Assembly: GCF_000336675.1 (NCBI RefSeq)
Contig: NZ_AOMB01000025.1
Coordinates: 27,971-60,310 of the forward strand
Direction of reading: 5' to 3'
DNA length: 32,340 nucleotides
Source: Halococcus hamelinensis 100A6
GTDB taxonomy: Archaea > Halobacteriota > Halobacteria > Halobacteriales > Halococcaceae
Shown: positions 4-32,340 of the stretch, piece after piece
How the letters are laid out: each line of letters begins with the position of its first letter
How positions within the stretch are numbered: the stretch's first letter is position 1
The notes under the pieces: generated by a model
Told to the model about the DNA's origin: nothing
Databases searched by the model: none
What the model saw: the letters and a program-made list of their open reading frames with translations, nothing else
Position numbers and translations under genes: made by a program

Positions 4-134
4 CGAGGGACCTTCGGTCCCTCGTGCTCTTGGAAAGCGAGGCTTTCCAACGGTCAGGAAATCGGAGATTTCCTTCGACGTGCGAACGGGCGCTTCGCGC
101 CCGTGAGCAGAGAGTGGTTCGCCGAAGGCGAACC
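4..134. repeat. Array of five consecutive short perfect hairpins
   Basis: Five inverted repeats follow one another: 4-24 (9-bp arms, loop TTC), 30-50 (8-bp arms, loop CGAGG), 56-74 (7-bp arms, loop CGGAG), 86-104 (8-bp arms, loop TTC) and 116-134 (8-bp arms, loop GAA). Centres are 25-30 bases apart. Arm sequences differ between hairpins, so this is a structural repeat and not a sequence repeat. The first hairpin has the stable C(TTCG)G tetraloop form. One frame stays open from base 1 to a TAG near 199, so the array could encode the tail of an upstream gene, but no start is in view. It is probably cut by the window edge. The function is unknown. Confidence 0.85.
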
Positions 135-23800: not shown

Positions 23801-24194
23801 TTCGACTCGCCGGTTGGGTAGATGGGAGGTCGATATGCCACTCGACCCCTCCCACCTGTATAAGCCGATAACCACAATATAACACTTTTGTATGTTACAA
23901 TCTATATGATTTTTGATGATAGAGGTCGCGGTCCTGCTTCTTCGCCCACTCCATTGGAACCCACACAAAACTTATTACGAAACGGCATGGAGATCGGTGT
24001 AGGATCGAAGGGGACTCCGTTGCCTGGCATCACCTGTAACACGTCCCGACGATCCTACCCTTCCTCCCCCTGTTTCAACGCACTGGAAAACCCCTGGGTC
24101 GAACTCGAAGCAACTTGCTCCAGCAGATGAGACGACAGGTGGTAGTGCGGGAGCGTCCATCGATGTCCGGATCGAGGATCGAAGGGCTCCACGG
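23801..24194. other. 394-base intergenic region with AT-rich core
   Basis: The stretch at about 23868-23930 is far richer in A/T than its surroundings and contains TTGTA-TGT-TACAA (an inverted repeat) and ATATGATTTTTGATGAT. Several TATA-like elements occur but none fits a downstream start. The rest is non-coding as far as I can see. Small reading frames here are Ser/Arg-rich and not credible. Confidence 0.45.
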
Positions 24195-30652: not shown

Positions 30653-30730
30653 CCCCGTTTCGTCGCTCGGTGGGAGAACGTCGTGGATCTGGCGATAGCG
30701 GTTCGCTCCCTGTCAGTAAGCATTTAAAGG

Positions 30731-30753
30731 GAGTACGTTTCGTGAGCTTTCGT
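30731..30753 (+). repeat. Origin-recognition-box-like repeat, copy 1
   Basis: GAGTACGTTTCGTGAGC followed by TTTCGT. The reverse complement reads CGAAAGCTCACGAAACGTAC, used here as the consensus. Confidence 0.75.
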
Positions 30754-30821
30754 GACTGGTCCCCGTGTTCAGATACCACCTGGTCCTCTCCGTATAGATA
30801 CCCAGCAGTCGTCTTTCGAGC

Positions 30822-30925
30822 AGTGAGCGGTAGAGAGTGAGTGATAGAGTGTGAGAAGTTGAGTAGTGAGCGGTAGAGAGTGAGTGATAGAGTGTGGGTA
30901 GCGGGTAAGTAGTAGAGAGTGAGAG
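30822..30925. repeat. Purine-rich tandem repeat between origin boxes
   Basis: A 32-base unit beginning AGTGAGCGGTAGAGAGTGAG occurs exactly at 30822-30853 and 30865-30896 (period 43), followed by degenerate copies to about 30925. Inside, shorter blocks of about 13 bases of the form GTGAG-NN-RTAGAG repeat. One strand is nearly free of C. With about half A/T it melts more easily than the rest, so it may serve as the unwinding element. Confidence 0.8.
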
Positions 30926-30945
30926 TGCGTTTCGTGAGCTTTCGT
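30923..30945 (+). repeat. Origin-recognition-box-like repeat, copy 2
   Basis: Matches copy 1 at 22 of 23 positions (GAGTGCG for GAGTACG), same orientation. Confidence 0.75.
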
Positions 30946-31010
30946 CCTCAACGGAGCACTGCATCCGATGAAAGCCACTGTGACATGAATTACGGTAGAC
31001 TGGGGAAGCA

Positions 31011-31030
31011 TACGAAGCTCACGAACCGCG
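31011..31030 (-). repeat. Origin-recognition-box-like repeat, copy 3 (inverted)
   Basis: TACGAAGCTCACGAACCGCG resembles the reverse of copies 1 and 2, with one base missing and a C in place of A. It abuts the box A of the orc1/cdc6 gene. Confidence 0.6.
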
Positions 31031-31031
31031 G

Positions 31032-31040
31032 TTTTAATAT
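31032..31040 (+). promoter_or_regulatory. Box A for orc1/cdc6
   Basis: TTTTAATAT lies about 30 bases before the ATG at 31069, directly after repeat copy 3. Initiator binding to that copy could repress its own gene. Confidence 0.6.
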
Positions 31041-31068
31041 GGGTGCTCCGGATACCGTCCGATAGTGC

Positions 31069-32256
31069 ATGGCAGGACCGTTCAGCGATATCACGGACAC
31101 CCTCTTCGCGAACAAAGAAGTTCTGAACGAGAGTTATCAGCCGGAAGCGATTCTAGAGCGGGACCAGGAGATCGAGGAGTATCGGTACGCGTTGCAGGAC
31201 GTCCTCTTCGGCCGTGACCCCGAGAACATCATGTTGTACGGGAAAGCCGGACTCGGAAAGACCGCCGTAACGACCTATATGATGAACGCGCTGAGTGAAG
31301 AAGTCGAAGCACGGGAGCAAGCGGACGACCTCCACATCCACAAAGTGAACTGTAACGGGAAGACGCTCTTTATCGTGGTCCGGACGCTCGTGAACCAACT
31401 CCTCCCCGAAGACGCGAGTTCGTTCCCGAAACGAGGGCTCGGAACCGGGGATGCCTTCGGGGAACTCTATCAACAACTCGACCGTATCGGTGGAACGCAC
31501 CTGTTCGTCTTCGACGAGATCGACCATCTCGACGAGGTCGACACGCTTCTGTACGAGCTCCCACGAGCGCGGTCGAACGCTCACCTCACAGCGGCGAGAG
31601 TGGGTATCATCGGGATAAGTAACAACTACACGTTCAGAAAATCCCTCTCGCCGAAAGTCAAGGACACCCTCATGGAGGACGAGATCTCGTTCAGCCCCTA
31701 CGATGCGACGGAGCTCCGGACCATCCTCAGGGATAGGGCGGAACGAGCCTTCGTCGAGGAGGGGTGGGACCGCTCCGCGCTCGGAATGGCATCGGCGATC
31801 TCTGCCCAGGACATGGGAAACGCCCGTCAGGCGATCGACCTCCTTCGTGTCGGGGGAGAGGTCGCCGAACGCAGGGACGACAGCTGTGTCACCGACGAGC
31901 ATATCGAGACCGCAAGGGAACTCGTACAGCGGGGTCGGCTCGTCAATCGTATTCGTGACCAGACGGACCATGCACAGTACATCCTCGAGACGATCGCCCG
32001 TCTCGAAGAACGTGGCGACACCCCGGTCCGCTCGAAGGAGGTCCAGGAGCGGTACGAACAGGTCGCACAGTCGTGGGCGACGTCACCACTGACGTCCCTA
32101 AAGAGCATTCAAGACCATCTCTCCGACCTCCACATGTTGGGGTTCCTCCGACGTAACGAGCGAAATCAGGGGCTCAACGGTGGGCAGTACTTCGAATACC
32201 AACTCGATCTCGATTCGGCACTCGTCCTCGAAACCCGTGAGAAGATCGAGGGATAG
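31069..32256 (+). CDS. Orc1/Cdc6 family replication initiator
   Basis: A 395-residue archaeal initiator that binds origin repeats and loads the MCM helicase. The AAA+ core has Walker A G58-K-A-G-L-G-K-T65, Walker B FVFDE with D149/E150, sensor 1 GISNNYTF (N185 or N186), and sensor 2 in MGNARQAIDLLR with R253. The stretch LSPKVKDTLMEDEISFSPYDATEL carries the DNA-contacting initiator-specific part. A C-terminal winged helix (about 295-395, with ETIARLEERGDTPVRSKEVQERYEQV) completes the family layout. Haloarchaea have several paralogues, each linked to its own origin. The repeats on both sides argue that this copy serves a local origin. Numbering (orc1, orc2 ...) cannot be assigned. Confidence 0.96.
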   Translation: MAGPFSDITDTLFANKEVLNESYQPEAILERDQEIEEYRYALQDVLFGRDPENIMLYGKAGLGKTAVTTYMMNALSEEVEAREQADDLHIHKVNCNGKTLFIVVRTLVNQLLPEDASSFPKRGLGTGDAFGELYQQLDRIGGTHLFVFDEIDHLDEVDTLLYELPRARSNAHLTAARVGIIGISNNYTFRKSLSPKVKDTLMEDEISFSPYDATELRTILRDRAERAFVEEGWDRSALGMASAISAQDMGNARQAIDLLRVGGEVAERRDDSCVTDEHIETARELVQRGRLVNRIRDQTDHAQYILETIARLEERGDTPVRSKEVQERYEQVAQSWATSPLTSLKSIQDHLSDLHMLGFLRRNERNQGLNGGQYFEYQLDLDSALVLETREKIEG

Positions 32257-32278
32257 CACACGAAACGTACTCTCTCTC
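32256..32278 (-). repeat. Origin-recognition-box-like repeat, copy 4 (inverted)
   Basis: GCACACGAAACGTACTC then TCTCTC, starting at the last base of the orc1/cdc6 stop codon. It is identical over 23 bases to copy 5, and opposite in orientation to copies 1 and 2. Confidence 0.8.
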
Positions 32279-32312
32279 CACGGTTGCTCACGACCCGCTC
32301 CCTCACTGGTTG

Positions 32313-32340
32313 CGAAAGCACACGAAACGTACTCTCTCTC
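32313..32340 (-). repeat. Origin-recognition-box-like repeat, copy 5 (inverted)
   Basis: CGAAAGCACACGAAACGTAC then TCTCTCTC. It matches the reverse of copy 1 with one change over 22 bases and repeats copy 4 at 62 bases distance. The array probably continues past the window. Confidence 0.8.

Follow-up and report, generated by a model that had tools for sequence, protein, structure and literature searches.

The window, meaning the whole 32,340-nt stretch of Halococcus DNA analysed here (G000:C25:27971-60310), has its right edge at the end of contig C25. Close to that edge lies a gene for an Orc1/Cdc6 initiator, surrounded by copies of a short repeated box, CASACGAAAYGTACTCTC (Table 1). The AAA+ and winged-helix domains of the encoded protein are intact, and its length exceeds the 300 aa expected of the initiator in a replicator-initiator origin. 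We recognized Walker A (GKAGLGKT), Walker B (DEID), the ISM (FPKRGL, aa 119-124) and the winged helix, and its solved structural relatives are Sulfolobus Orc1-1 and Aeropyrum Orc1 (2qby/2v1u). At least four further Orc1/Cdc6-like genes are present in the same genome (on C3, C6, C8 and C9).

Table 1. Features of the orc locus, in window positions except for the last line
Feature	Position	Strand	Details
Upstream box 1 (CGAAAGCTCACGAAACGTAC), outward tract CTCCCTTT	30724..30752	-	pattern search (match 30731-30751)
Purine/G-rich, almost C-free repeat tract	30818..30924	+	4 C in 107 nt; ~14-bp and 43-bp repeats; leads into upstream box 2
Upstream box 2 (CGAAAGCTCACGAAACGCAC), outward tract CTCTCACTC	30915..30944	-	pattern search (match 30923-30943)
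Tandem ACGAA half-sites near the promoter (31012 and 31021, 9 bp apart)	31008..31031	+	tract-less; kept in relatives
TATA-like box (TTTTAATA)	31032..31039	+	30 nt 5' of the orc start; conserved in relatives
orc1/cdc6 initiator gene	31069..32256	+	395 aa; TIGR02928, 397.5 bits; Cdc6_lid, Cdc6_C
Downstream box 1, tract CTCTCTCTC	32252..32278	+	pattern search (match 32252-32272); its start lies just 5' of the stop codon of orc, with which it overlaps
Downstream box 2 with tract	32314..32340	+	pattern match 32314-32334; unit 2 of a 62-bp tandem array running on into C26
Array boxes on contig C26	C26:8-27 and 70-89		62-bp spacing

A search of the window with the pattern GAAAGCWCACGAAACGYACTC, allowing up to three mismatches, returned exactly four matches, all of them around the orc gene, and none in 100 shuffled controls. 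The earlier note, made from the letters alone, had counted five copies: four of them bear a tract (two upstream, two downstream), but the fifth agrees with the consensus at only 13 of 20 positions and is tract-less. It had the orientation right, with the upstream pair on the minus strand and the downstream pair on the plus strand. Both tract-bearing upstream boxes share one direction, which we count against an origin; inverted pairs form solely between the two sides of the gene or with the half-site element as partner. The purine tract described beside the boxes is real; on the strand that carries the CGAAA core, though, it reads as pyrimidines, so that it is no same-strand equivalent of the haloarchaeal G-string. 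Within the 3.4-Mb assembly, the strict form with its tract, CANACGAAAYNTACTCTC, is limited to the window end of C25 and to C26. A perfect 12-bp core was also found at one lone site (C10:21417), with neither tract nor array. We therefore rejected a genome-wide scatter of the box, one of the outcomes that the earlier note had named as telling against its own reading; the tract-bearing box is confined to the orc locus.

A candidate third upstream box (about 31009-31030, plus strand) was rejected as a true ORB: it has neither the second half nor the tract, and is instead a conserved promoter element. Of 28 relatives, nearly all keep this half-site pair immediately 5' of the TATA box of orc, where it is likely an autoregulatory site. 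Farther upstream, the repeat tract at 30818-30924 has the lowest C (or G) count of all 107-nt stretches of the window and is the most strand-asymmetric of them. It is possibly an expanded tract or an easily melted element; no such G/A-rich repeat tract is evident in the two Halococcus relatives that carry the module. AT content around the locus is about 0.53 against a background of 0.35, a modest enrichment that we count against an origin. The AT peak of the window lies elsewhere, at 23826-23905 (near 23.85 kb), and reaches 0.65. The locus has no Rfam match, and a reading as an RNA feature was dropped.

The first 35 bp of contig C26 (5.7 kb) repeat the end of C25 exactly, and extending the sequence past 32340, as the earlier note had advised, yields one further box at the same 62-bp spacing. 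At least three downstream boxes are thus spaced at 62 bp across C25 and C26 (three if the 35-bp overlap is a true join), and this number of units is a minimum, because the assembly broke inside the tandem box array. In a near Halococcus relative (G006), a single contig carries homologs of the left flank of the window and of the C26 genes in the same order, with 6 kb between them. The overlap and this synteny place C25 and C26 side by side, and led us to reject an assembly artefact at the contig end. Several boxes therefore lie directly 3' of the cdc6 gene, the layout of an oriC2D-type cluster. The spacing of the downstream arrays is regular and species-specific (52, 54, 55, 56, 62 or about 67 bp among relatives), which suggests that they arose by tandem duplication of a box plus its spacer. 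By analogy, the downstream tandem array resembles a known titration region rather than an origin proper.

The box CASACGAAAYGTACTCTC flanks orthologs of the gene (at least 68% identity) in about 30 haloarchaeal genera. We surveyed co-occurrence in 146 genomes of the order, taking as a member of the Orc family any protein of at least 52% identity. The strict box pattern is present in 33 of the 146 genomes and the reversed-pattern control in none. Genomes with the Orc family have the box in 26 of 29 cases, against 7 of 117 for those without it (Fisher p 3e-19, a value that overstates independence because of shared ancestry); its exact form is absent from the other 3 of the 29 genomes with the wider Orc family, which we count against the reading proposed below. 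Haloferax volcanii is absent from the hits for this Orc family. Most box matches (82 of 98) fall within 2 kb of the gene, and two more are those on the adjoining C26. The repeats are thus family-specific boxes in the intergenic regions beside orc, and the tract points outward from the gene in 116 of 125 boxes (28 loci). The "private initiator/box pair" of the earlier note holds in so far as the pairing is initiator-specific; it is not private to this genome, given the spread of the Orc family over about 30 genera. As a pair of this kind at an accessory origin, a kind already known (Wu et al. 2012), the locus is well supported. Three boxes in another genome (G135, C4:2309-2955) have no Orc of this family nearby at 52% identity or more, and may mark an orphan or decayed origin. 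In Halobacterium salinarum DSM 3754, a gene of this family is flanked by boxes on either side (L141); in strain NRC-1 of that species, origins have reportedly been mapped by marker frequency.

The earlier note was also correct that the box is not of the main oriC1 type. The oriC1-like locus of this genome is on C8, with an oriC1-type Orc and inverted G-string boxes of the form CGAAAC(A/G)AAGGGGTG (as CGAAACAAAGGGGTG and CGAAACGAAGGGGTG), neither of which is found at the window locus. The two loci are alike in having a CGAAAC core followed by a tract, and an inverted pair; they differ in that oriC1 has TTCCACTCGAAACAAAGGGGTGGGGGG with a G-string, another dyad, and an Orc of another subfamily. 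The orc locus on C3 has yet a different G-string box, CATATCGCACACGGTGGGTGGG. Initiator-specific boxes are established in haloarchaea (Wu et al. 2012, PMC3528665), and the origins described there resemble the window locus in having, next to an Orc1/Cdc6 gene, boxes specific to its family and in inverted orientation (in the window, across the gene or against the half-sites), which can lie on either side of it, and in being patchy, mobile and often chromosomal. Those ORBs were selected for a G-string, whereas the window has its tract on the strand opposite to that of the core; the box is therefore known in kind, but does not conform to the G-string rule of earlier predictions. A parallel in layout is Haloarcula hispanica oriC2-cdc6E with oriC2D, where upstream boxes form the origin and a box cluster lies directly 3' of cdc6 (PMC3936714). 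Origin/cdc6 pairing and negative control by the downstream ORB cluster were shown there genetically (PMC3936714); for the window array titration is only suggested, and the likeness is one of box layout.

The module is patchy even within the genus, being present in 3 of 10 Halococcus genomes. In the near relative G006, similarity to the window extends to 30670 and similarity to C26 begins at 405 (85-93% identity near the junctions); between those flanks G006 holds a 3.5-kb segment with DUF4129- and DUF58-type genes and no box. Because G006 has other genes there, we conclude that the module was inserted or exchanged at this site, on a chromosomal backbone. By tblastn, its DUF58-type genes were not found in the examined stretches of G001 (Halococcus morrhuae DSM 1307), G004, the window and C26. 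G001 and G004 share with the window only 30914-32275, box to box, in another genomic setting; together with the matching G006 flanks, this indicates that the box-orc-box unit itself moved, on chromosomes. The description of the locus as an accessory and probably acquired module is thus borne out by the unrelated genes of G006 at the same site. "Captured replicon" is not: the flanks are chromosomal, and members of the Orc family occur both on chromosomes and on haloarchaeal megaplasmids. Occurrence on megaplasmids, and the insertion relative to G006, would also suit a remnant of an integrated plasmid or virus replicon. We find this unlikely, since the genes to the left and right have syntenic chromosomal counterparts in G006, and since only about 2 kb differs, in which orc is the sole gene recognized. 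A viral source was rejected in particular: a scan of viral contigs gave eight box matches, all isolated and single, and the closest phage Orc is 24% identical.

We interpret the locus as an accessory chromosomal replicator-initiator module in which the Orc encoded at 31069-32256 binds its own box, CASACGAAAYGTACTCTC, and give this reading a probability of roughly 0.8. Binding by Orc, origin firing, titration, autorepression and the role of the ISM residue discussed below are inferred. The winged helix of Orc would read the CGAAAY core and the ISM of the AAA+ domain the tract. Once on the upstream boxes, Orc would load MCM, and the DNA between boxes and gene would open as the place where replication starts. 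The downstream tandem boxes would mainly sequester Orc, as a titration or negative-control array of the type proposed for oriC2D, and expression of orc would be held down by repression at the tract-less half-sites beside the TATA box.

The same features could be given other roles. With half-sites adjoining the TATA box in nearly all relatives, and with some archaeal Orc1 paralogs acting as transcription regulators (PMC9738581), the boxes might be mainly operators and sinks for orc expression, or parts of a selfish, addiction-like module, with no role as an origin. A promoter operator would not need distal arrays, however, and the gene has several tract-bearing boxes facing outward on either side, as proven origins do; we judge this alternative very improbable. 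It is easier to imagine an origin, dormant or decayed, that arrived together with its initiator and is still binding and self-regulating, but silent in wild-type cells. Many such haloarchaeal origins lie dormant, and recently acquired ones may stay silent until the primary origins are deleted (PMC4595724); the module is both patchy and newly placed relative to G006. On the other hand, the boxes, the promoter element and the ORF are intact, and the constraint on the box across about 30 genera suggests a selected function. Dormancy is a possibility to be taken seriously, although we lean away from it.

The tract itself distinguishes the accessory module from its relatives. On the shared core CGAAAC, sister Orcs and the genome's own oriC1 have a G-string (CGAGGGGTG, CAAAGGGGTG), and the window clade a pyrimidine tract (CGTACTCTC). 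C exceeds G in 112 of the 116 outward boxes of this clade (consensus CGAAAYGTACTCTC), so the halophile G-string at the ORB end is not found on its core strand. The sister clade (57-60% identity; for example Halorubrum alkaliphilum, Halobellus captivus, Halohasta, Natronocalculus) shares the core ACAGACGAAAY, and the members inspected also share the outward layout and the promoter half-sites. Its box, GAACAGACGAAACGAGGGGTGTG, differs in having the tract GAGGGGTGT, a G-string on the core strand, together with the ISM FPETG, where the window clade has GTACTCTC and FPKRG. G016 (56% identity) has a C-string as its tract. Five loci with Halocatena/Actinarchaeum-type Orcs and the ISM FPKKG (L149, L153, L157, L164 and L165) show GTACTGT, a tract of mixed type that may be intermediate between the two polarities. 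At one sister-clade locus (L155, Halorubrum salipaludis), a dense array of CACAAGAGCA repeats begins about +23 downstream of orc, just before the box.

The residue before the Gly-Leu pair of the ISM follows the tract: it is Arg or Lys in 41 of 41 reversed-tract rows, and Thr, Ser or another non-basic residue in 36 G-string rows; two G-scored rows with K/R are exceptions, and seven rows are mixed. Since the tree holds only about four polarity changes, with two independent pairs on supported branches, we treat this correlation as a lead and not as statistical proof. The ISM touches the G-track in the Aeropyrum complex, and an ISM mutant of Sulfolobus Orc1-2 targets a Gly-Leu pair (PMC9738581), which in our alignment corresponds to G123-L124 of the window Orc. 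Haloarcula hispanica oriC1 depends on its G-strings, for which the AAA+ domain is the presumed reader (PMC3936714). The main texts consulted on haloarchaeal origins do not mention a tract of reversed polarity. Our tentative proposal is that the ORB tract switched strands, between G-string and pyrimidine tract, within one Orc1/Cdc6 family while the core stayed fixed, and that a basic residue before the ISM Gly-Leu (Arg/Lys122 versus Thr/Ser) may act as the switch by which the AAA+ domain becomes able to read a tract of reversed polarity, so that the origin is insulated from the cell's other initiators. Reversed tracts would bar the window initiator from oriC1, and the oriC1 initiator from the window boxes.

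Haloarchaeal cells have several origins, each with its own initiator, and how origins are told apart has not been worked out residue by residue. Here sister initiator clades share one box core but have opposite tract polarity, matching a difference of one or two ISM residues, which offers a compact, swappable test of specificity. Replacing the tract of the clade with GAGGGGTG is predicted to abolish autonomous replication. The G-string held to be essential in halophiles is not universal, and searches that require it may overlook origins like the one in the window.
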